Source: a virus. Taken from it: 34,742 nucleotides of DNA. How positions within the stretch are numbered: position 1 is the stretch's first letter; every line of letters starts with the position of its first letter. The stretch is from positions 1-34,742 of IMG/VR virus record IMGVR_UViG_3300044960_000085. The stretch is one strand, 5' to 3'. Made by a program: the position numbers and the translations under genes. Below are positions 789 to 27,321 of the stretch, in pieces. Below the pieces are notes generated by a model. The model made no database searches. It was not told where the DNA came from and saw only the letters and a program-made list of their open reading frames with translations.

Positions 789-995
789 ATGCGCCAAGTG
801 AACAAGCGCAAGACCCCCGAGGAGGTGAGGGCCGAGTTCACGCGCCGCGGCATCACGATCAGGTCATGGTCCCGCGCCAATGGCATCAGCGAGCGTGTCG
901 TCTACGAGCTACTGCGTGGCAGGTTCCGTGGGCGCTACGGGCAGGCGCATCGAGCCGCGGTGCTGCTCGGCCTCAAGGAGGGGGTAGTCGATTGA
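789..995 (+). CDS. BcepMu gp16-like DNA-binding regulator
   Basis: This 68-residue basic protein opens the early operon. The pattern EVRAEFTRRGITIRSWSRAN, then the recognition-like helix GISERVVYELL and the tail GQAHRAAVLLGL, is that of the small phage-associated family typified by BcepMu gp16. Its position corresponds to Ner of Mu, the early transcription down-regulator. No Shine-Dalgarno is visible before the ATG; a GTG at 798 is an alternative start. Its stop overlaps the transposase start in an ATTGA junction. It probably binds the palindromes just upstream, which is inference. Confidence 0.75.
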   Translation: MRQVNKRKTPEEVRAEFTRRGITIRSWSRANGISERVVYELLRGRFRGRYGQAHRAAVLLGLKEGVVD

Positions 996-2980
996 ATAAC
1001 ATCGTCGCACTCGAGGCCGTAGCGCAGGCGCTCGGCTGCGCCAAGCGCAGCGTCGAGCGGCGCGCCTCCCGTGAATGCTGGCCATACACCGAAGAGCGCT
1101 GCCGCGGCGGACGACGGCGTCTGTACCGTCTAGATGGCCTGCCTGCCGACGTGCAGGCGAAAGTCATCCTCCACAGTGTCTCCTCGTCCGGCCCCATGCG
1201 GCCGGTTTCGTCCCCAGGCGGCCTGCCGCCGTCTGGGGACGTTTTCCAGCAGCCAGCGGCGGCGGCTCCCGCAGCGCTCACCGATGACGAGCGCGCGGCC
1301 CTGTGGCGGTGGTACGACTCACGCACTCAGGACATCAAGGACACAGCCCGCCGCCGGCTGCCGGCCATGCAGGCTGTGCGCCGGCTCCTCGACACGGGCA
1401 TCACGGCGCGGCAGGCGCTGCGCGAGACCGCGCGCGTGCTCGGCGTGCCAGAGCCGACCCTGCGACGCTGGTGGTACGGCGACGGAAGCAACCCTGGATG
1501 CTGCGCCGCACACCCGTCCGACTACCTCCCGCTGCTCGCCCCGCGGTGGGCAGGACGCGCCGAGGAGGCGCAGATCGATCCCGCAGCCTGGGACGCCTTG
1601 CTCGCCGACTACCTGCGGCCAGAGCAGCCCGCGCTGCGGGCGTGCTACCGCCGGCTGCGTGACGCAGCCCAACGCAGCGGCTGGCGGCTGCCGAGCTACG
1701 CAACGATCGCGCGCCGGGTCGAAGCGCTGCCGTGGCAGGCCGTGGTGCTCGCCCGCGAGGGTCGCGAGGCGCTGGTGCGCCGCATGCCGCACGTGACGCG
1801 CACCAAGCATCACCTCCGGGCGCTGGAGGCCGTCAATGCGGACGGGCACGTCTTCGACCTGCGGGTCGAGCTTCCGAGCGGCCAGACGGGCCGGCCGGTA
1901 CTGGTGGCCTGGCAGGACATCTACAGCAGCAAGATCCTGGCATGGCGCGTCGGTGAGACGCTGTCCAGCCATCTCGTGCGGCTCGCCTTCGGCGACGTCG
2001 TCGAGCGCTACGGCGTGCCGGAGCACGCTTATCTCGACAATGGCCGCGAGTTCGCGGCAAAGACGCTGACAGGCGGCGCGCGCACGCGCTTCCGGTTCGT
2101 CGTCCGGGACGAGGACCCCATGGGGCTGTTCACGCAGCTCGGGGTGCACGTGCACTGGACCACCCCCTATCACGGGCAGGCCAAGCCCATCGAGCGCGCC
2201 TTCCGCGATCTGTGCGAGGGCATCTCCAGGCATCCCGCAGCCGCGGGCGCCTACACCGGAAACTCGCCGGTGAACAAGCCGGCCAACTATGGCGAGCGCG
2301 CCATGCAGTGGGATGCGTTCGTGCGGTTGGTCGAGGCCGCCATCGCCGAGCACAACGCGCGCGGCGACCGGCGCAGCGCCAACGCCAAGGGGCGCAGTTT
2401 CGACGCGGTGTTCAACGCCAGCTACGCCTCGGCCGTCATCCGCCGTCCAACGGACGAGCAGCGCAGGCTGTGGCTCCTTGCGGCCGAAGGCGTGACGGTG
2501 CGCGCCACAGGCCACGTCGCCATCGCCGGAAACGCATACTGGGGCGAGCAGGTGGCAGCGCTCGCAGGGCGTCGCGTCATCGTCCGGTTCGACCCGGACC
2601 ATCTGGACCGCCCGGTGCACGTCTACACCCTCGACGGCGCGTACGTTGGCGCCGCCGAACGTACCGCCGCCGCCTTCGATGACCTGGATGCCGCGCGCCA
2701 GCACGCGCGCGCGCACCGCCAGGCACTGCGCGCCGCCAAGCAGATGCAGCAGGCGCTCGCGCGCAAGGAGGCGCTGGCCGCCGTGGCGCATCTGCCAGGG
2801 GCTCTGCCGGACCGCGATCCGCCCGCGCCGGCGGCGGTACGGATCATGCCCGCGCCGCGCCGGCGTCAGCCTGAGCCGCTCGCCGCAGCCACCGGCACCG
2901 ACGACTACGTGGGAGCGGCGGACAGGATCGTACTGGCGGCGCTCGAGCAGCGACGCCGCAAATCGCCCGACGAAGGATGA
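992..2980 (+). CDS. A: Transposase A, MuA-like DDE recombinase
   Basis: This enzyme binds the phage ends and performs DNA cleavage and strand transfer in replicative transposition. I place the start at TTG 992, with AAGGAGG at 975-981, giving 662 residues, almost the length of MuA (663). The in-frame sequence upstream duplicates the gp16-like gene in another frame and is not coding here. The N-terminus resembles the MuA DNA-binding domain (ALEAVAQALGCAKRSVERR). The catalytic triad is visible as D284 (NADGH), D349 (YLDNGREF) and E401 (KPIERAF), with spacing close to MuA D269/D336/E392. The basic, Ala-rich C-terminus is the expected MuB-contact region. The TTG start overlaps the preceding stop (ATTGA), suggesting translational coupling and limited expression. 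Confidence 0.93.
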   Translation: MNNIVALEAVAQALGCAKRSVERRASRECWPYTEERCRGGRRRLYRLDGLPADVQAKVILHSVSSSGPMRPVSSPGGLPPSGDVFQQPAAAAPAALTDDERAALWRWYDSRTQDIKDTARRRLPAMQAVRRLLDTGITARQALRETARVLGVPEPTLRRWWYGDGSNPGCCAAHPSDYLPLLAPRWAGRAEEAQIDPAAWDALLADYLRPEQPALRACYRRLRDAAQRSGWRLPSYATIARRVEALPWQAVVLAREGREALVRRMPHVTRTKHHLRALEAVNADGHVFDLRVELPSGQTGRPVLVAWQDIYSSKILAWRVGETLSSHLVRLAFGDVVERYGVPEHAYLDNGREFAAKTLTGGARTRFRFVVRDEDPMGLFTQLGVHVHWTTPYHGQAKPIERAFRDLCEGISRHPAAAGAYTGNSPVNKPANYGERAMQWDAFVRLVEAAIAEHNARGDRRSANAKGRSFDAVFNASYASAVIRRPTDEQRRLWLLAAEGVTVRATGHVAIAGNAYWGEQVAALAGRRVIVRFDPDHLDRPVHVYTLDGAYVGAAERTAAAFDDLDAARQHARAHRQALRAAKQMQQALARKEALAAVAHLPGALPDRDPPAPAAVRIMPAPRRRQPEPLAAATGTDDYVGAADRIVLAALEQRRRKSPDEG

Positions 2981-2984
2981 AAGA

Positions 2985-3037
2985 CGCCCGCCAGGGTGGC
3001 AGCCCTGGCGGGCGGTGTAACCGGCCCTCGAGGGGCC
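2985..3037 (+). terminator. Tandem hairpins between A and B
   Basis: A perfect 12-bp stem (2985-2996 with 3003-3014, loop TGGCAG) begins five bases after the A stop. It is followed by a second inverted repeat centred on CCTCGAGG (3026-3033). There is no U-run, so this is not a standard intrinsic terminator. It may be an attenuator, an RNA-stability element or an RNase site that sets the A:B ratio. The Shine-Dalgarno of B lies just downstream. Confidence 0.5.
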
Positions 3038-3060
3038 ATCTAAGCAAGGAGAAAGCCTAC

Positions 3061-4020
3061 ATGAACGCAGTTGTGATGGAAATCCCGCAGCCTCAGGCCG
3101 ATGACGTGATCGGCGCGGTGCGCGCCGAGCTCGAGCGGCGGGGACTGACGCAGACGCAGATCGCCCGCGAGGCAGGAATCTCGCCGACATCGCTCACGCA
3201 GTTGCTCGGCGGCACCTATGCGGCCGACCCGCGCCGGCTGCTCGCCAAGCTCGAGCAGTGGCTCACCAGCCTGCGCGAGCGCGCCGCGCAGCCGCAGCTA
3301 CCGGACGCGCCGGACTGGGTCGCGACCGGAACGGCCGAGCGGATTCTCGCCGCACTTGGCTACGCCCAGATGGCCGGCGACGTCGCGGTCATCTACGGCG
3401 GCGCCGGCGTGGGCAAGTCCACGGCGGCGCGCGAGTACAGGCGCCGGTACCCGAATGTATGGCACGCCACGATGTCGCCGGCGACCGCCGGCGTCACCAC
3501 GGCGCTCGAAGAGGTCTGCCTGGCGCTGGGCATGCGTGAGCTGCCCCAGGGCGCGGCGCGCATGAGCCGGGAAATCGTCGCCCGCGTGCGCGACACGCGC
3601 GGGCTGATCATCGTGGACGAGGCGCAGCACCTCTCGGTGGGCGCGCTCGATGCGCTGCGCGCGATCCACGACGCCACCGGCGTCGGGCTTGCGCTCATGG
3701 GCAACGACCTCGTCTACGCGCGCATGACCGGAGGCGCGCGTGTGGCATGGCTGGACCGGCTGTTCTCGCGGATCGGGCGCCGGCTGCGGGTGGCGCGCGC
3801 CAGCAGGGCCGACGTCGAGGCCATCGCAGACGCGCACGGGGTCGGCGGCGGCGACGCGCTCAAGCGCCTGGCCACCATCGGCGCCGGCGCCGGCGCCCTG
3901 CGATCCGTCACCAAGTGCCTGCGGCTGGCGCGCCTGATGGCCGCCGGGCGAGGCGAGTCGCTATCTGCGGCACACATCGACGCCGCATGGCGCGATCTGA
4001 CCGGGGAGGACGTGCAATGA
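3061..4020 (+). CDS. B: ATP-binding transposition protein B (MuB-like)
   Basis: This AAA+ ATPase selects target DNA and stimulates transposase A. The ATG at 3061 has AAGGAG at 3046-3051; 319 residues compares with 312 for MuB. An N-terminal HTH is clear (GLTQTQIAREAGISPTSLTQ, about residues 28-47), as in MuB. Walker A is GGAGVGKST (113-121, K119) and Walker B is LIIVDEAQHL (D186, E187). The C-terminal half contains the usual AAA+ sensor region and helical lid. It is separated from A by 80 bp holding two hairpins and overlaps the next gene by an ATGA junction. Confidence 0.92.
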   Translation: MNAVVMEIPQPQADDVIGAVRAELERRGLTQTQIAREAGISPTSLTQLLGGTYAADPRRLLAKLEQWLTSLRERAAQPQLPDAPDWVATGTAERILAALGYAQMAGDVAVIYGGAGVGKSTAAREYRRRYPNVWHATMSPATAGVTTALEEVCLALGMRELPQGAARMSREIVARVRDTRGLIIVDEAQHLSVGALDALRAIHDATGVGLALMGNDLVYARMTGGARVAWLDRLFSRIGRRLRVARASRADVEAIADAHGVGGGDALKRLATIGAGAGALRSVTKCLRLARLMAAGRGESLSAAHIDAAWRDLTGEDVQ

Positions 4021-19661: not shown

Positions 19662-20414
19662 ATGATCTACTACTCTGGACAGGGGCGCGTGTACGTTGGC
19701 GCGCGCGATGCAAACGGCAACCCGCTCGCCATGCGCTGGCTCGGCAACGTGCCGGAGCTGCGGATCTCGCTGAACGTCGAGACCATCGAGCACAAGGAGT
19801 CCTATTCCGGCCAGCGACTGACCGACCTGCAGATCATCAAGGGCAAGGACGGCGAGTTCAGTTGCTCGGTGGAGGACTTTTCGGTCAAGAACCTCGAGCT
19901 GGTGCTGTACGGCACCACGTCTGCGGTGACGGCCGGCAACGTCACCGCGGAGACGCTGCCCACGGGCGTGACGGCCGGCCAGATCTACCTGCTCGCCAAC
20001 CAGCAGGTCTCGTCCGTGGTCGTCAAGGACTCGGCTGGCAGCCCGGCCACGCTCACCCCGGACACCCATTACCGCGTGCTCGCCGCGCAGGGCGCGATCG
20101 AGTTCATCAACGTCGGCACGTTCGTGCAGCCGTTCAAGGTCGACTACGCCTACGGCGCGGTCAACCGGCTGGCGATGTTCAAGAGCGCGCAGCCTGAAGT
20201 CTGGCTGCGTTTCGACGGGCTGAACACCGCAGACTCGAACAAGAGTGTCATCGTCGACCTGTACCGCGTCGTGCTCAATCCCGCGAAGGACTTCAGCCTG
20301 ATCGGCGAGGAACTGCAGAAATTCGAGCTCGCCGGGCGCGTGCTCGCCGACACCACGAAGAGCGACACCGGACCCCTGGGCCTGTTCGGCCGCGTGATCC
20401 AGCCCTCGGCGTAA
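19662..20414 (+). CDS. Major tail tube protein (siphovirus type)
   Basis: This 250-residue protein has the tube-protein pattern of long beta strands: YYSGQGRVYVGARDANGNPL, VPELRISLNVETIEHKESYS, IKGKDGEFSCSVEDFSVKNL, and near the end VIVDLYRVVLNPAKDFSLIG with EELQKFELAGRVLAD. AAAGGAG (19648-19654) gives a strong ribosome site, fitting an abundant structural protein. No contractile sheath gene accompanies it, so the tail is non-contractile. Confidence 0.85.
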   Translation: MIYYSGQGRVYVGARDANGNPLAMRWLGNVPELRISLNVETIEHKESYSGQRLTDLQIIKGKDGEFSCSVEDFSVKNLELVLYGTTSAVTAGNVTAETLPTGVTAGQIYLLANQQVSSVVVKDSAGSPATLTPDTHYRVLAAQGAIEFINVGTFVQPFKVDYAYGAVNRLAMFKSAQPEVWLRFDGLNTADSNKSVIVDLYRVVLNPAKDFSLIGEELQKFELAGRVLADTTKSDTGPLGLFGRVIQPSA

Positions 20415-20427
20415 TGGAGCATGACGC

Positions 20428-20757
20428 ATGGCCGTTCGCCTGTTCCGGGGCGATACGTGGACACGGGCATGGGAGCTGCGCGATGCGGCCGGCGCGCCGA
20501 TCGATCTGACGGGTGCCACCGCGCGGCTGCAGGTCCGCGATGACGCCGACGCGGTGCTGATCGGCGCCAGCACCGCCGACGGCCGGCTCACGATCACGCC
20601 GGGCGCGGGCCGCATCGACATGCGGGTGCCCTACGCGGCCACGGCGCTGGCGCCCGGCACCTACAGGTTCGACCTCGAGGTCACGCACGCCGACGGCACG
20701 CGCCGCACCTACGAACAGGACACGCTCGTCGTGCTCGCCGATGTGGCGCGGGACTGA
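20428..20757 (+). CDS. Beta-sandwich virion protein, BppU-N/Ig-like
   Basis: This 109-residue single-domain protein has LFRGDTWTRAWELRDAAGAP, IDLTGATARLQVRDDAD and GTYRFDLEVTHADGTRRTYE. This resembles the N-terminal domain of lactococcal-type baseplate BppU and other Ig-like virion decorations. It may attach adhesins to the tube or tail. It leads a block of four surface-type genes placed between tube and tape measure. Confidence 0.65.
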   Translation: MAVRLFRGDTWTRAWELRDAAGAPIDLTGATARLQVRDDADAVLIGASTADGRLTITPGAGRIDMRVPYAATALAPGTYRFDLEVTHADGTRRTYEQDTLVVLADVARD

Positions 20758-20781
20758 CACCGATGACGGGAAGCGATTTGC

Positions 20782-21054
20782 ATGAGCGACACGGTGCGCA
20801 TCGTCGTCCGCGAGCCGGTGGTGGTGGCGCGCTCGGAGGTGCTGCCCGGTCCGCCGGGCGGCATCCGCTACGTGCACACCCAGTCGTCGGCCGCGGCCAC
20901 GTGGATCGTCAACCACGGGCTCGGCGTGCGGCCCGCGGTGCAGGTGCTGACCACGGGGGGCATGGCGATGCTCGCCGAGATCGTGCACGTGGACAACAAC
21001 CAGTTGCAGATCCTCTTTGCGCAACCCATGGCCGGGCAGGCCGTGCTCAACTGA
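20782..21054 (+). CDS. Small tail adhesin-type protein with NHxLG motif
   Basis: This 90-residue protein has the short collagen-like step GPPGG, then the fibre-head pattern YVHTQSSAAATWIVNHGLGV and LQILFAQPMAGQAVLN. The same NHxLG...FAQ module forms the C-terminus of the next protein. Such modules cap phage fibres and may bind receptors or mediate trimerisation. Confidence 0.7.
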   Translation: MSDTVRIVVREPVVVARSEVLPGPPGGIRYVHTQSSAAATWIVNHGLGVRPAVQVLTTGGMAMLAEIVHVDNNQLQILFAQPMAGQAVLN

Positions 21055-21066
21055 CGGGGAATTGAC

Positions 21067-21852
21067 ATGATCGTCGGATCGAATCTCGACTTCGGGGGCG
21101 TCGCCCGCATCCTCAACCTGCCGGCGCCGGCCTCCGACCAGGAACCGGCGCGTCTGGCGGATCTGAACAGCGCCATCGAGGGGCTGGCCTGGAAGGACAG
21201 CGTGCGCGTGGCCACACAGTCGAACGTGAACCTCGCCAGCCCGGGCGCGTCGATCGACGGCGTGACGATGAGCGCCGGCGACCGCGTGCTGGTGCGCGCA
21301 CAGACCACCGCCTCCGAAAACGGCATCTACGTGTGGAACGGCGCCGCGGTGGCGATGACCCGCGCGCTCGACGCGAACAGCGCCGCCGAGCTCGAGCAGG
21401 CCGTGGTCACGGTCGAGGAAGGCTCCAGCGCCGGCGTCACCTACCGGCAAAGCGCGGTCAACTTCACCCTGGGCACGGATCCCGTCAACTGGACGACCTT
21501 CGGCACGTCCGCGCCGCCGGCGTCGGAGACCACCGCCGGCATCGCCGAGATCGCCACCCAGGCCGAGACCGACGCCGGCACCGACGATTCGCGCATCGTC
21601 ACGCCGGCCAAGCTGGCGTCGTGGTCCGGGCGCATCCGCCGGTACGCCACCAACGTCGGGGACGGCTCGGCCACCAACTACACGGTGACGCACAACCTCG
21701 GCACGCGCGACTGCCATGTCGCCGTCTACCGCAACAGCGGCGCCTACGACGTGGTGCTCGTGGATGTGGAGATGACCACGGCCAACACCGTCACGCTGCG
21801 GTTCGCGCAGGCGCCCGCCAGCAATGCCTTCCGCGTCGTGATCTTCGGCTAG
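21067..21852 (+). CDS. Tail fibre-like protein
   Basis: This 261-residue protein starts NLDFGGVARILNLPAP, a common phage-fibre N-terminus. It continues with beta repeats (VRVATQSNVNLASPGASIDG, GDRVLVRAQTTASENGIYVW), the fibre linker TTAGIAEIATQAETDAGTDD and the terminal head YTVTHNLGTRDCHVAVYR with TLRFAQAPASNAFRVVIFG. It is probably a receptor-binding or tail-surface fibre; the C-terminal head is paralogous to the preceding small protein. Confidence 0.78.
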   Translation: MIVGSNLDFGGVARILNLPAPASDQEPARLADLNSAIEGLAWKDSVRVATQSNVNLASPGASIDGVTMSAGDRVLVRAQTTASENGIYVWNGAAVAMTRALDANSAAELEQAVVTVEEGSSAGVTYRQSAVNFTLGTDPVNWTTFGTSAPPASETTAGIAEIATQAETDAGTDDSRIVTPAKLASWSGRIRRYATNVGDGSATNYTVTHNLGTRDCHVAVYRNSGAYDVVLVDVEMTTANTVTLRFAQAPASNAFRVVIFG

Positions 21853-21865
21853 CAGGTCCGCGCCC

Positions 21866-23188
21866 GTGACGATCGCGCGTCTCGGCTACGCGGTCCTCGA
21901 TGCCAGTGCCGGGGATCTGTCGGCTGCCGCGAATGTGCCGGCAGGCACCGACTTCGCGGTCGCTTTCTGGACGCACCGCGGCTCCCTGCTCGGGGCGTCG
22001 ATCGCGCAGTCCCTCGCCATCGGCGGGCAGGCGATGACGATCGTCGAGCAGGTGGCAACCAACGTCGCGGAAAGCGGCAGCCGCGGCACCGGCGTGGCGG
22101 TGCTGGCTTCGCCGCCGACGGGCAACCAGACGCATACCCTCGCCTGGTCGCCGGCCGGCGCGCGCCCAGAGGGCGGGCATGTGCTGTTCGCGTATCTGTC
22201 CGGCGTCGATCAGGTCGCGCCGGTGCGCGCCAGCGGCGTCTCGGCGCCGGGCTACTGGGGGAGCCCGCAGGTGCAGCTCGCCTCGGTGGACCCGACGGAC
22301 CGCGTGCTCGCGATCGGCGCGGGCTCATCGTGGTCGTCGTCGATCAGCCTCGCCGGGGTGACGCTCGCCGTCGACAACCACGTGCTGAACAACGAACACC
22401 TGGACTTTGGCGACGATGGCGGGTTGTCCGGGACGGTGACGGTGTCCGCGCCGGAAATCCAGTACACGTCCGTCGCAGCGATCGCCCTGCGCCAGTCCGG
22501 TGTCACCACAGACGAGGCAATCATGGAACTGCTCGCCCATCTGCAACTGCCGGTGCTCACCTCGCTGCCGTCCGCTGGCAAGGCCGGTCGCATCGCCTAC
22601 TACGGCGGCGTCCTCTGGATCGACGACGGCACGGCGTGGTCGCCCGTGGGCATGGGCGATGCGCTGCGGCTGCGCAGTGCGGCCACGCCGTCGATCGCCG
22701 GCGACGAGGCCGGCACGGCACTGGGCACATTGGCGTTGACGGCGTCGCGGCAGTATTTCGTGCCGTTTGTCCCGTCGCGCGCGATCACCCTGACCGGCCT
22801 GCGCATCAGCGTCACCACCGCGTTGGCCGGCCAGGCATCGGTGGGCATCTACGGCAACACGCGGGTGGGCGGCAACGACGCCCCCGGCGCACTGCTCGCA
22901 TCGGCTACCGGGCTGGACACCGGCACCACGGGCGACAAGACGGGGTCGGTCTCGCTGACGCTGCAGCCGGGCAGCATCTACTGGGCCAGCGTCATCGCGT
23001 CCGCGGCCGCGACCGTGCGCGCGCTGGCGGTCGGATCGATCAAATCCGCGCTCGGGCGCACGGTGAACAACACCACGCTCGTGTCGCATCTGTACGCGGC
23101 CGGCAGCGGATCCACGCTGCCCGATCCGGCCTCGACGACGCTCACGGCCGGCACGGGCAGCATCCCGGCGATCTACCTGGTGGAGTGA
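21866..23188 (+). CDS. Large virion surface/adhesin-like protein
   Basis: This 440-residue protein from GTG 21866 is all-beta in character. The first part (YAVLDASAGDLSAAANVPAG, MTIVEQVATNVAESGSRGTG, VLAIGAGSSWSSSISL) resembles a jelly-roll. A middle piece (LPSAGKAGRIAYYGGVLWID) is typical of fibre proteins. The C-terminal region (GLRISVTTALAGQASVGIYG, GSIYWASVIASAAATVR) resembles carbohydrate-binding beta-sandwiches. No enzymatic motif is seen. It probably acts in host attachment with the fibre genes next to it. The ribosome site is weak. Confidence 0.7.
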   Translation: MTIARLGYAVLDASAGDLSAAANVPAGTDFAVAFWTHRGSLLGASIAQSLAIGGQAMTIVEQVATNVAESGSRGTGVAVLASPPTGNQTHTLAWSPAGARPEGGHVLFAYLSGVDQVAPVRASGVSAPGYWGSPQVQLASVDPTDRVLAIGAGSSWSSSISLAGVTLAVDNHVLNNEHLDFGDDGGLSGTVTVSAPEIQYTSVAAIALRQSGVTTDEAIMELLAHLQLPVLTSLPSAGKAGRIAYYGGVLWIDDGTAWSPVGMGDALRLRSAATPSIAGDEAGTALGTLALTASRQYFVPFVPSRAITLTGLRISVTTALAGQASVGIYGNTRVGGNDAPGALLASATGLDTGTTGDKTGSVSLTLQPGSIYWASVIASAAATVRALAVGSIKSALGRTVNNTTLVSHLYAAGSGSTLPDPASTTLTAGTGSIPAIYLVE

Positions 23189-23191
23189 GCG

Positions 23192-23509
23192 ATGTCGAGG
23201 GCGCTCATCGACCCGCGCCGCATCCGCGCACACCTGCTCGCCGCCGGTGGATGGCATACGCACGAGGAGATCTGCGACGCCCTCGGCGCCGAGCACAGGA
23301 TCCTGCGCGCGTCCGTCTCGGGCTCGCTCACCGTGCTGGCGCGCGCCGGCGCCGTGGCCAAGCGGCGCGGGCGCAGTGGCGAGATCGTCTACGGCGTGAC
23401 GGCGCGCTGCAAACCATTGGAGGATGCCTGTGGATATGTCTGTGATCGCGTTGCTGGCCGCGGCGGTGGCGGTGATCCTGCTGGCGCTGCGGGAGTGGGG
23501 GCAGCATGA
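23192..23509 (+). CDS. Winged-helix protein within the tail module
   Basis: This 105-residue protein reads RRIRAHLLAAGGWHTHEEIC, DALGAEHRILRASVSGSLTV and then a wing, AKRRGRSGEIVYGVT, up to about residue 70. The remaining tail (GRGGGGDPAGAAGVGA) is low complexity because that DNA also encodes a small membrane protein in another frame. A DNA-binding fold among tail genes is unexpected; it may be a late regulator. GGAG precedes the ATG. Confidence 0.65.
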   Translation: MSRALIDPRRIRAHLLAAGGWHTHEEICDALGAEHRILRASVSGSLTVLARAGAVAKRRGRSGEIVYGVTARCKPLEDACGYVCDRVAGRGGGGDPAGAAGVGAA

Positions 23510-23513
23510 CTGA
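23430..23513 (+). CDS. 27-residue membrane peptide
   Basis: GTG 23430 follows GGAGG (23419-23423) by six bases and encodes VDMSVIALLAAAVAVILLAL then REWGQHD, one clear membrane helix with a polar tail. It overlaps the end of the winged-helix gene and the start of the tail chaperone gene (ATGACTGA). The strong ribosome site and helix support it; the function is unknown. Confidence 0.55.
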   Translation: MDMSVIALLAAAVAVILLALREWGQHD

Positions 23514-23883
23514 AGGGACGGCCGTGCCGCAGATCATCGAGCCCGTGCGGGTGGGCGATCTGCCGCGATTCCTCGCCGCGGTGGAGCCGGTGGCGCGCGA
23601 GATTGCCGCCGGCGACGTGTTCGCCGCGCTCATACGTCATGCCGATGCGGTGATCGAGGCCACCGCCATCGGCGCGCGGGTGGATCGCGCCTGGCTGGAG
23701 CAGCAGCCGCCGGACGTGCTGGTGTATCTGGCGGCCAAGGTCATCGAGGCGAACGCGGATTTTTTCGTGCATCGCGTGCTGCCGGTGATCCAGGCAGCCG
23801 CCGATCGGCTCGGGCGGATCGCCTCTGGTGGCACGAGTGGGTCGCGCGGCTCGTCGCCGCCGGATTCGGCTACCGCGACGTGA
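23506..23883 (+). CDS. Tail assembly chaperone (lambda gpG-like)
   Basis: This 125-residue protein has the acidic helical character of tail chaperones: IEPVRVGDLPRFLAAVEPVA, LIRHADAVIEATAIGARVD, QQPPDVLVYLAAKVIEANAD and FFVHRVLPVIQAAADRLGR. It ends in a Ser/Gly/Thr-rich tail where an overlapping -1 frame becomes protein-like. It sits just before the tape measure, whose folding it assists. The stop overlaps an ATG in the -1 frame (TGATG). Confidence 0.8.
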   Translation: MTEGTAVPQIIEPVRVGDLPRFLAAVEPVAREIAAGDVFAALIRHADAVIEATAIGARVDRAWLEQQPPDVLVYLAAKVIEANADFFVHRVLPVIQAAADRLGRIASGGTSGSRGSSPPDSATAT

Positions 23884-24035
23884 TGGCGATGCCATGGACG
23901 CTGGCGCGCGACTTTATGGACGCGCACGGGCGCATCCGGCGCGAGGCCCTGATCGAGGCGGCAGTCGCGGCGCGGGCCGCGCAGGCCGACGGCAAGGCGT
24001 GGGAGAAGTGGCTAAAGGAGATCAGCGCAGGATGA
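23506..24035 (+). CDS. Frameshifted tail assembly chaperone (gpGT-like fusion)
   Basis: In the -1 frame an uninterrupted reading continues to 24035, encoding RLWWHEWVARLVAAGFGYRD, VMAMPWTLARDFMDAHGRIR and AWEKWLKEISAG, clearly protein-like. Most of the upstream part of this frame has no start codon. A -1 slip would fuse it to the chaperone, giving about 176 residues (87 before a slip at 23766, 89 after), the arrangement conserved in siphoviruses. Separate initiation at ATG 23883, coupled by TGATG, could give only the last 50 residues. Confidence 0.65.
23760..23766 (+). other. Candidate -1 slippery heptamer T_TTT_TTC
   Basis: The zero frame reads GAT TTT TTC, so T_TTT_TTC is a canonical X_XXY_YYZ site in the right phase for a -1 shift. 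The -1 frame has no stop from here to 24033. The zero frame still looks protein-like for about 20 codons past the site, so a later non-canonical slip remains possible. Confidence 0.55.
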
Positions 24036-24141
24036 TCAGCGCCACGGCCGCGGCAGCAAGTGCTGCTGCGGCGATGATCGAGCCGCCCGCCAGTGCCAGC
24101 GGCGCCGCGGCGGCGAGCAGCATGACGACAACGGTGCGCAT
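24022..24141 (-). CDS. Candidate leftward small membrane protein (39 aa)
   Basis: The complementary strand between the chaperone and the tape measure reads MRTVVVMLLAAAAPLALAGG, then SIIAAAALAAAAVALIILR: a signal-like helix and a second membrane helix. The rightward frame over the same bases (24032-24148) gives only Ala/Ser-rich sequence. Codon choice does not separate the two. There is no Shine-Dalgarno on either strand, so this is a tentative call. Confidence 0.3.
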   Translation of the reverse strand: MRTVVVMLLAAAAPLALAGGSIIAAAALAAAAVALIILR

Positions 24142-24144
24142 GCA

Positions 24145-27100
24145 ATGAGCGTAGGCGACCTTGCCATCGGCATCAAGCTCACGCTGGACAACCGCGAGCT
24201 GGCCGGCAATCTTGAAATCTCGCGCGCGCAACTGCGCAAGTTCGCCGATGACACCAGGCGCGCGGCGGGTGCGTCCGCGGAGGCATTCTCCACCACGCGC
24301 ACGGCGCTGAAATCCATCTCGACCCAACTGGCCGAGGCCAGGAATGCGGTGCTCGGCTACTTCTCAGCCGTGCAGGCCGCAGCGGCGGCGCGCGCCATCC
24401 TCGATGCGGCAGACGCCACACGCGCGCTCTCGGCCCGCCTTCGCATCGCCACATCCGATGCCACGGAATTCGCCCGCGCGCAGGCCGGCGTGTTCGAGAT
24501 CGCCAACCGCTACGGCGCCGCGGTCGATGAGACGGCGCGTGCGTTCGCGCGTCTGAATCCGGTCATCCAGCAGATGGGCGGCGGCAGCGCCGAGACGCTC
24601 AGGATGCTCGACGGGCTGGCCGCGTCGCTCAAGCTCTCCGGGGCCACGGCGGCCGAGACCTCGGGCGTGCTTCTGCAGTTCTCGCAGGCGATGGGGTCCG
24701 GAAAGGTGAGCGGCGACGAGCTGCGCGCGCTCATGGAAAACGCCGAACCGCTCATGCGCGCGGTGGCCCAACAGATGGGCAAGACAACGGGCGAGCTGCG
24801 CGCCATGGCGGAACAGGGGCAGCTCACCAGCGCCGCGTTCGGCAACGCGCTGCTGCCGGCCATCGATCGGCTCAGGCAGCAGGCCGGCGACATCCCGCTG
24901 GGGCTGTCCGGATCGATGCAGATCCTGCGCAACGAGTTTACCCGGGCCTTCGGCCGCGAATTCGAAAGCCGGTCCACGGCGCTGTCGGATGCCGTGCGGT
25001 CCATCGCAGACTCAGCCGACTTCGCCGCGCGCGCCGTGCGCGTGCTCACCGATGCCGTCGTCGAGCTCGGCAAGGCGGCTGCGATGGTGTTCGCCGGCGC
25101 CGCCATCGGCGGATTCGTGGCGGCCATCGGACGCGCCGGCGCCGCCGTGGTCGCGTTGCGCGAGGCGATTGCAGCCGTCAATGTCGTGACCGCCGCGCTG
25201 GTCTTCGGCGCGGTCATGAAGAAGCTCGAAAGCCTGTCCAAACTCGGCCGCGGCGGGCTGCTCGGACTGGTGTTCTTCGGGGCCTATGAGCTGACGGACT
25301 GGCTGATTCAGATGACCGGGCTGCGCGAGAAGATCGCCGACGCGCTCGAGCCGGCGTTCCGGCTGTTCGACCGCGTGAAGGGCATCGATCGCGAGGCCGA
25401 GGCGCGAGCGGCCGCGCAGGCGGCATCCGCGACGGCGGCAGCAGCCCAGGCTGCGCCGAAACGCCTTTCCGACCCGTCCGCCTTCGCGCGACTGACGCAT
25501 GATCTGGCCTATGAGACGCGCCTGCGCGCCAAGCACAAGCAGGAACTGCTCGACCTCGAAACCGCCTACCAGGACAAGCTCGCCACGCTCAAGGACGAAA
25601 AGGCCAGGCAGGCATTCACGCAGGAATTTCGGGAGGCCCGCAGGGAGCTGCTGCTCAGGCAGCAGCAGGAGATGCAGGGCATTCTGTCCAGAAAGCTCGG
25701 CACGGTGACGCAACCGCCGAAGCTGGCGGAGGTGTTCGACGCCGAGCTCGCGAGCCTCAGAGCCAACCTCAAAACCGCCGAGGACGTGATCGAGCAGTCC
25801 TTCCGGGCGCGGCTGCTCACGGAGGACGGGTATTGGCAGGCCAAGGCCGAGACGCGCCGTCAGGCGCTCGACCTCGAGGCGCGCGAGCTGCGCACAAAGC
25901 TCGCCGAGCAGCAGGACCTGCTGGCGCGGCTATCCGCGGTCAAGCCCAAAGACGCCAACGAGCAGGCCGACATCGCCGATCGCGTGCGGCAGGCGAGGAA
26001 CAAAATCGCCGAGCTGCAGGTGCAGCTCGACGCGCTCGCGGGCCGGCGCGTCACGGTCGACATGGAGATCCGGACCGATCGTGCCCGGCTGGATCGTGAG
26101 CTCGCGGACATCCGGGCGAGGCTGGAGCAGGAGCTCGCCCAGGCAAGCGGCACCGAGACGCCCGAGATGCGCATCGCCGCCATCCGCCGTGAATACGACG
26201 ACCTGCTGGCGCGCTTCGGCAACGATCCCCGCCTCGTCGAGCTGCTCGACAGGCTGGTGCCGGTCAAGGCGGCGCGCGCCGATCTGGCCGATCTCGAGCG
26301 GCAGTGGAATCTGGTGATGGAGCGCATGCGCACCGAGGCGGAACTCACGCGCGTCCAGCAGGAGGCCGGGCTGCTCACGCAGACGCAGGCGCAGCGCAGG
26401 ATCGTCGGGCTGCAGCGGCAGGCGGCCGATGAGGCGCAGCGGCTGATCCCGGCCATGCAGCAGGCGGCGGCGTCGCTCGGCCCCGAGGCCGAGCAGCGCG
26501 TGCGCGCGCTGACGGTCGAGCTGGTGCGGTTGCGCGTGACGGCGGATGAGTTCGCGCCGCTTTGGCAGGGCATTGGAGGCGCGTTTGCAGCCGCCCTCGA
26601 AGGCATGGTCACGAGGACGAAATCCTGGCGCGATGCGCTCTATGGGTTGTTCGTCGACGTCGCCGCTGCGTTCCGGCGCGAGATCGTGCTCAAGCCGCTG
26701 CAGGAGTGGATCGCCGCCCAGACGCGGATGCTGGCGGTCAAGCTCGGCTTCGTGCAGCAGGAGGCCGCGGCGCAGACGGCCGCCAGCCAGGCGATCGTGG
26801 CGGCCAAGCAGCAGGAGGCCGCGGCCACCGTGAGCGCGGAGGCCGCCAAGGCCGGCGCCGGCGCGGCCGCCTCGCAGGCGTCGATCCCGATCGTGGGGCC
26901 GGGGCTGGCCATTGCCGCGATGGCGGCGATGGTCGCCGCGGTGATGGCGCTGCTCGCGCGCGTGCGGCGTTTCGCCGCCGGCGGGGCCGTGCCGGGCGCG
27001 GGTGATCGGGACTCCGTGCCCGCGCTGCTCACGCCAGGCGAGTTCGTGCTCCGCCGCGACGTGGCGCGGCGCATCGGTTACGACCTGCTGGCGGCGATCA

Positions 27101-27321
27101 ACGGCGGCATCGTGCCGCCCAGGGTGATTGCCGGGCGGCTTGCGTTTGCCGACGGTGGCATGGTGCCGGCCGCAGCGGCAACGCAGCCGGTGCGCATCGT
27201 CAACGCGATCGACCCGGCCATCGCCGCAGACTGGATCGGATCGGCCGCAGGCGAGCGGGTCGTGCTCAACCTCATCGCGCGCAACGCGCCGGCGGTGCGG
27301 ACGATCCTCGCGGGAGCGTGA
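24145..27321 (+). CDS. Tail tape measure protein
   Basis: At 1058 residues this is the longest gene and sets tail length (roughly 160 nm at 1.5 angstrom per residue). The N-terminal tape-measure domain includes LRIATSDATEFARAQAGVFE, SGDELRALMENAEPLMRAVA and GELRAMAEQGQLTSAAFGNA. Hydrophobic stretches lie at about 305-360 and 913-940. The middle is long coiled coil (about 450-870). The C-terminus carries FAAGGAVPGAGDRDSVPALL and TPGEFVLRRD, a typical tape-measure ending. No lytic transglycosylase motif is seen. No Shine-Dalgarno is visible before the ATG. Confidence 0.92.
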   Translation: MSVGDLAIGIKLTLDNRELAGNLEISRAQLRKFADDTRRAAGASAEAFSTTRTALKSISTQLAEARNAVLGYFSAVQAAAAARAILDAADATRALSARLRIATSDATEFARAQAGVFEIANRYGAAVDETARAFARLNPVIQQMGGGSAETLRMLDGLAASLKLSGATAAETSGVLLQFSQAMGSGKVSGDELRALMENAEPLMRAVAQQMGKTTGELRAMAEQGQLTSAAFGNALLPAIDRLRQQAGDIPLGLSGSMQILRNEFTRAFGREFESRSTALSDAVRSIADSADFAARAVRVLTDAVVELGKAAAMVFAGAAIGGFVAAIGRAGAAVVALREAIAAVNVVTAALVFGAVMKKLESLSKLGRGGLLGLVFFGAYELTDWLIQMTGLREKIADALEPAFRLFDRVKGIDREAEARAAAQAASATAAAAQAAPKRLSDPSAFARLTHDLAYETRLRAKHKQELLDLETAYQDKLATLKDEKARQAFTQEFREARRELLLRQQQEMQGILSRKLGTVTQPPKLAEVFDAELASLRANLKTAEDVIEQSFRARLLTEDGYWQAKAETRRQALDLEARELRTKLAEQQDLLARLSAVKPKDANEQADIADRVRQARNKIAELQVQLDALAGRRVTVDMEIRTDRARLDRELADIRARLEQELAQASGTETPEMRIAAIRREYDDLLARFGNDPRLVELLDRLVPVKAARADLADLERQWNLVMERMRTEAELTRVQQEAGLLTQTQAQRRIVGLQRQAADEAQRLIPAMQQAAASLGPEAEQRVRALTVELVRLRVTADEFAPLWQGIGGAFAAALEGMVTRTKSWRDALYGLFVDVAAAFRREIVLKPLQEWIAAQTRMLAVKLGFVQQEAAAQTAASQAIVAAKQQEAAATVSAEAAKAGAGAAASQASIPIVGPGLAIAAMAAMVAAVMALLARVRRFAAGGAVPGAGDRDSVPALLTPGEFVLRRDVARRIGYDLLAAINGGIVPPRVIAGRLAFADGGMVPAAAATQPVRIVNAIDPAIAADWIGSAAGERVVLNLIARNAPAVRTILAGA

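Follow-up and report, generated by a model that had tools for sequence, protein, structure and literature searches.

A conserved T_TTT_TTY heptamer as the very probable site of a -1 frameshift in the tail assembly chaperone gene of a Mu-like phage

In the tail gene region of a Mu-like phage, the reading frame of a tail assembly chaperone is overlapped at its 3' end by a second reading frame in the -1 phase, which raises the question of whether the two are joined by a programmed frameshift and, if so, at which site the slip would occur. The window, i.e. the whole stretch of DNA analysed here, is a virus record of 34,742 bases, which profile matches to its genes relate to Mu-like tailed phages; a transposase and a transposition protein are encoded at 866-4020, with genes for the portal, the head, the major tail protein, the tape measure and the tail after them. 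A sequence-only reading of this DNA had proposed a -1 frameshift of the conserved G/GT type in the chaperone gene, and this proposal is borne out by the profile match of the chaperone ORF and by the tape measure gene found downstream. As argued below from comparative sequence analysis, a -1 frameshift at the heptamer 23760-23766 very probably generates a 176-aa chaperone fusion beside the 125-aa form. The features at stake are the following:

19662-20414, plus strand: major tail protein (phrog_807, E 4.9e-85).
23506-23883, plus strand: zero-frame tail assembly chaperone, 125 aa, with a putative lambda gpG-like role (phrog_1442, E 7.6e-20).
23760-23766, plus strand: slippery heptamer T_TTT_TTC, found as T_TTT_TTY in 118/118 sequences, with 0 inferred changes in its six Ts.
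23818-24035, plus strand: -1 frame domain, LWWHEWVARL...KEISAG, with a putative lambda T-like role (codon-position differences; phrog_14432).
24145-27321, plus strand: tape measure protein (Pfam TMP_3, E 3e-49; phrog_2335 and others).

In the window, the codons GAT TTT TTC at 23758-23766 place T_TTT_TTC in the X_XXY_YYZ phase and no stop lies between it and the -1 region, exactly as the sequence-only reading had claimed. This is the only in-phase XXXYYYZ within the chaperone ORF and, on both strands of a window with 70.7% GC, the only run of six Ts; TTT represents 17 of the 164 Phe codons in the window genes counted, a few of which may be spurious ORFs. Residues 1-87 of the chaperone are common to the 125-aa form and the fusion, and the -1 frame is open from the heptamer to the stop at 24033-24035; it contains ...RLWWHEWVARLVAAGFG..., and its domain overlaps the zero frame up to 23883 and stands alone beyond. 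The chaperone matched Pfam DUF6631 at 24.5 bits, which is under the gathering cut-off of 27, and no solved structure related by sequence was found for the two products (best E 0.41 and 0.076). Regarding profile databases, phrog_14432, a family of unknown function with 191 positions, matches fusion residues 67-174 (23706-24029) and thus spans the junction. Since this match crosses the junction, the database seems to include the fusion already, not recognised as a chaperone.

Relatives were collected by scanning with the two products of the window and, in a second step, with 17 aligned chaperones, resulting in 151 sequences, namely the window and 150 loci, of which L001 duplicates the stretch of the window itself. 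Removal of identical DNA from match to stop left 119 distinct sequences and, as L009 is truncated before the site, 118 were retained, i.e. the window and 117 relatives. Their sources are viral contigs and bacterial genomes, the latter labelled Thermomonas, Pseudomonas, Cupriavidus, Thiobacillus, Rhodoferax and Methylococcus, among others. The zero-frame stop is present in 116 records and the -1 stop in 115, the other 3/118 running off the record first; the tree was built on 117 tips without the short L150, and 62 representatives correspond to clusters at 80%. A peptide pattern containing DFF was used in part of the search, which biases amino-acid conservation and leaves codon conservation unbiased. 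Because the sequences share kinship, P values are not to be taken literally.

Across the 118 distinct sequences, the site reads T_TTT_TTC in 80 and T_TTT_TTT in 38, and no other form occurs. By way of background, the same genes use TTT for 80/195 Phe codons and GAT for 238/650 Asp codons. In all three sequences where the preceding Asp is replaced, the T is retained, the codons being GGT, AAT and GTT. On the 117-tip tree, the six Ts underwent no inferred change, the seventh (Z) base changed 8 times and most third positions of neighbouring codons changed about 12-35 times. The zero frame ends 25-45 codons past the heptamer in the 116 records holding its stop, with 40 codons in the window; the impression that the site lies earlier than expected is therefore not upheld for this family.

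The same two frames, in the same phase and with the same site, were recovered in 118/118 sequences when both frames were aligned across the relatives, as had been suggested. The -1 frame is open for 87-121 codons from the heptamer in 115/115 records holding its stop, and a -1 stop directly abuts the 5' side of the heptamer in 19/118. Within the 17 codons after it, no sequence holds a -1 stop (0/118), against 22.9 or 28.4 expected under two synonymous-resampling nulls; among the 62 representatives, none was observed against 10.3 or 13.6 expected. Stops in the -1 frame of close homologues, which would have spoken against the frameshift, were thus absent between the heptamer and the domain. In upstream control windows, 45, 21, 41 and 10 of 117 sequences hold -1 stops where the pooled null expects 59, 32, 43 and 24; as these controls fall below expectation, the synonymous null appears somewhat high, yet they are nowhere near zero. 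With stops lacking downstream of the heptamer and controls so far from zero, the -1 frame is most likely read from the heptamer onward. Length changes occur just after the heptamer, within the linker, in L006, L007, L008, L011, L016, L017 and L020, with both frames kept.

The segment immediately downstream of the site deserves separate consideration:

23767-23817, plus strand: first part of the overlap, under zero-frame constraint and, in the -1 reading, a free linker (differences 0.259/0.228/0.497; -1 stops in 0/118).

Pairwise differences were compared by codon position in 19 close sequences without length change. By zero-frame codon position, they amount to 0.152/0.102/0.444 upstream of the heptamer and to the values above from +7 to +57; from +58 to the zero-frame stop, they become 0.106/0.288/0.079, i.e. 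0.079/0.106/0.288 for positions 1/2/3 of the -1 frame. Close to 23818, the constrained frame changes from zero to -1. The zero frame had been said to remain protein-like for about 20 codons past the heptamer; this proved true, with some 17 codons constrained in that frame and corresponding to a linker in the -1 product. Because the constraint switches near 23818, the stretch past the slip is best regarded as chaperone sequence that would form a linker in the minority product, so that no other slippery site is needed to account for zero-frame constraint after the heptamer. Read in the -1 frame, 23767-23817 shows no constraint as protein, which would fit a linker and untranslated sequence equally; only the absence of stops argues for its translation.

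Two putative stimulators flank the heptamer:

23746-23749, plus strand: Shine-Dalgarno-like GAGG, putative stimulator, ending 10 nt before the heptamer (conservation, anti-SD energy).
23767-23811, plus strand: predicted RNA stem-loop, putative stimulator (-21.8 kcal/mol, z -1.89).

In the alignment, the upstream element shows G at -12 in 118/118, G at -11 in 115/118 and A at -13 in 111/118, and its Glu codon is GAG in 109/109 cases for a background of 70%. Hybridisation to the anti-SD at -16 averages -8.25 vs. -6.0 kcal/mol in synonymous shuffles, and 95% of sequences vs. 71% of the shuffles reach a dG of at most -4 kcal/mol; the core of the window, GAGGC, is weaker than GGAGGT. As for the 3' side, 11/200 shuffles fold as well as the stem of the window, which is modest evidence. 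Among the 62 representatives, the 48 nt after the heptamer gave a mean z of -1.2 vs. synonymous shuffles, for -0.4 to -0.5 in upstream control windows and -0.1 to -0.4 further downstream. Clear stems appear in some groups, e.g. Thiobacillus/Cupriavidus (consensus -19.7 kcal/mol, 7 sequences), and a stem common to the close relatives of the window was sought among the 19 close sequences and not found. Judging from these patterns, the GAGG element and a lineage-variable downstream RNA structure look like stimulators. In dnaX of E. coli, the SD-like element is spaced 10 nt from the heptamer; the chaperone family likewise has such an element, about 10 nt upstream of its heptamer, although dnaX is another gene, with the heptamer A_AAA_AAG and a shift giving a shorter product. 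The combination of an upstream SD-like element, a slippery heptamer and a 3' stem-loop is described for dnaX in PMC5009743.

Several other routes to the same pair of products have to be weighed. The fusion could arise by normal translation if RNA polymerase slipped on the T run and added one U to some transcripts. Such a route would also need a single-base run, and 38/118 sequences do carry seven Ts; against it, 80/118 have only six, the runs described for bacterial transcript slippage comprise 9 A or T (PMC5009743), and neither an SD-like element nor a 3' structure would be needed, which leaves this explanation very unlikely. It has also been suspected that the real slip site is a different one, closer to where the conserved -1 domain begins at about 23818, in line with a zero-frame constraint extending some 17 codons beyond the heptamer. 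A second conserved slippery site was looked for from +7 to +59 on the 117-tip tree and none was found: as only two Cs of a Pro codon are unchanged there, no such site is conserved. Moreover, none of the 118 sequences carries a -1 stop in the intervening stretch, and the unchanged T6 would otherwise have no explanation. The invariant heptamer and the -1 frame open from that very point thus argue strongly against this suspicion, which retains hardly any probability.

Alternatively, the -1 domain could be made separately, by reinitiation at a start codon overlapping the end of the chaperone ORF:

23883-23885, plus strand: ATG that overlaps the stop of the zero frame in TGATG and might act as a minor reinitiation start, with this overlap in only 37/116.

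Beyond the TGATG of the window, a -1 frame ATG lies within 15 nt of the zero-frame stop in 41/116 sequences, but the exact stop/ATG overlap is restricted to the 37 just mentioned, 33/116 have no -1 frame ATG after the heptamer and 25 more have one only beyond codon 60. Besides, the -1 frame is under constraint already some 21 codons upstream of ATG 23883. This start may add a minor product in the clade of the window but cannot be the general route, and as a replacement for the frameshift it is hardly credible. Least plausible of all is the view that chance or a sequencing error put the frames out of step, be it between two neighbouring genes or within a decayed one: the sequence is indeed a virus record without independent confirmation, but the same frames, phase and site recur in all 118 sequences, from viral contigs as well as bacterial genomes. 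The preferred explanation hence remains a -1 shift at T_TTT_TTC, because the six Ts are unchanged, the -1 frame is open from there and no -1 stop intervenes before the downstream domain.

In kind, such a frameshift is not new, being already proposed in one phage (PMC4378225) and annotated in another. In the Pseudomonas phage PaMx73, codons 116-118 of core ORF 35, 43 codons before the stop, were put forward as a T TTT TTC site for a -1 frameshift of tail assembly genes; by the description given in PMC4378225, the heptamer is the same and the overlap similarly long (43 codons vs. 40 in the window). In the record of Casadabanvirus MP42, the annotation gives both a slippery site for a -1 frameshift and the joined product, the annotated stretch reading TTTTTTC, and the DMS3 and JBD30 records hold the same heptamer without a joined product. 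In these three phages, T TTT TTC is found at the homologous NxGFF/NADFF position; unlike in the chaperone family studied here, there is no clear GAGG element 10 nt upstream of it. Family profiles built on 119 (zero-frame) and 118 (-1 frame) sequences matched MP42 at 45.2 bits (E 5e-13) and 36.5 bits (E 2.6e-10), respectively, with Z set to 1000; by these matches, both frames are homologous to the two products of MP42, i.e. the D3112/MP42-like chaperone family. In the annotated phage collection, no match was found with the two products of the window (tblastn), with the L140 relative or by blastn, and the link to named phages was obtained only through the L117 sequence.

As in Mu-like Pseudomonas siphophages, where the chaperone lies between the major tail protein and the tape measure, the chaperone ORF of the window stands downstream of the former and upstream of the latter. 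It differs from theirs by an unlike N-terminus and by the several genes intervening in the window, where about 3 kb at 20428-23509 separate the major tail protein from the chaperone; this block holds a head decoration match (phrog_2647), a 440 aa protein with weak matches only and a weak HTH match. In several relatives, e.g. L003, L004, L008 and L103-L107, some 265-325 nt separate the end of the major tail protein match from the heptamer, and the gap holds fewer genes in L003, L004 and L103-L107 than in the window. Because such relatives have a short gap, the block looks like an insertion. A small hydrophobic ORF, MSVIALLAAAVAVILLALREWGQHD, occupies another frame at 23436-23513 and overlaps both the end of the ORF 23192-23509 and the start of the chaperone. 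On the minus strand, a short hydrophobic reading frame at 24022-24144 lies opposite the interval that separates the -1 stop from the tape measure gene and may be due to chance.

In lambda, the slippery site is G GGA AAG. With the lambda G/GT type, the present locus has in common a chaperone ORF, its position among the genes, an overlapping -1 ORF devoid of a conserved start and an in-phase heptamer. The -1 shift in the lambda chaperone gene gives a minor, C-terminally extended form that bridges the tape measure and tail tube proteins, with gpG and gpGT at about 30:1, G binding the tape measure and T the tail tube protein (PMC5009743). The same source places the lambda shift near the 3' end of G, whereas that of the window lies 40 codons before the stop. 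The minor extended form would be the shared trait, and the roles of its two parts are carried over here by analogy.

On this basis, the majority of ribosomes would complete the 125-aa chaperone, and a minority, with tRNA-Phe on TTT and TTC, would slip back one base at 23760-23766 onto TTT TTT, and read the -1 frame to 24035. The resulting 176-aa fusion would comprise 87 chaperone residues, a short linker and the -1 domain. Pairing of GAGG with 16S rRNA at 10 nt and the stem just 3' of the site would probably raise the rate; in certain tailed phages, the shift seems to proceed with no stimulator at all (PMC5009743). A modest slippage rate would be in keeping with the rank of U_UU.Y, reported as the second shifty tetramer in E. 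coli (PMC4066793). By analogy with lambda, coating of the tape measure protein would fall to the short form, and recruitment of the major tail protein to the -1 domain carried by the rare fusion.

For this chaperone family, the comparison settles where the probable shift lies, and a heptamer proposed in one Pseudomonas phage group is now extended to many proteobacteria, in their phages as well as their prophages. Automatic gene calling would yield the 125-aa protein, with the fusion either missed or truncated. More broadly, a large family of siphophage and prophage chaperones could share a T_TTT_TTY signal of the dnaX kind, stimulated from both sides and placed 25-45 codons ahead of the stop, with one DNA stretch serving the chaperone and then the -1 domain, a generalisation that may equally well prove right or wrong. 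If true, the fusion would tolerate almost any linker and the chaperone would end in disposable low-complexity sequence. Likewise, it would be for the stimulators to set how much of each form is made, and they could be tuned in each lineage; the upstream and downstream signals offer a concrete handle on whether the proportion of short and long form is indeed tuned.
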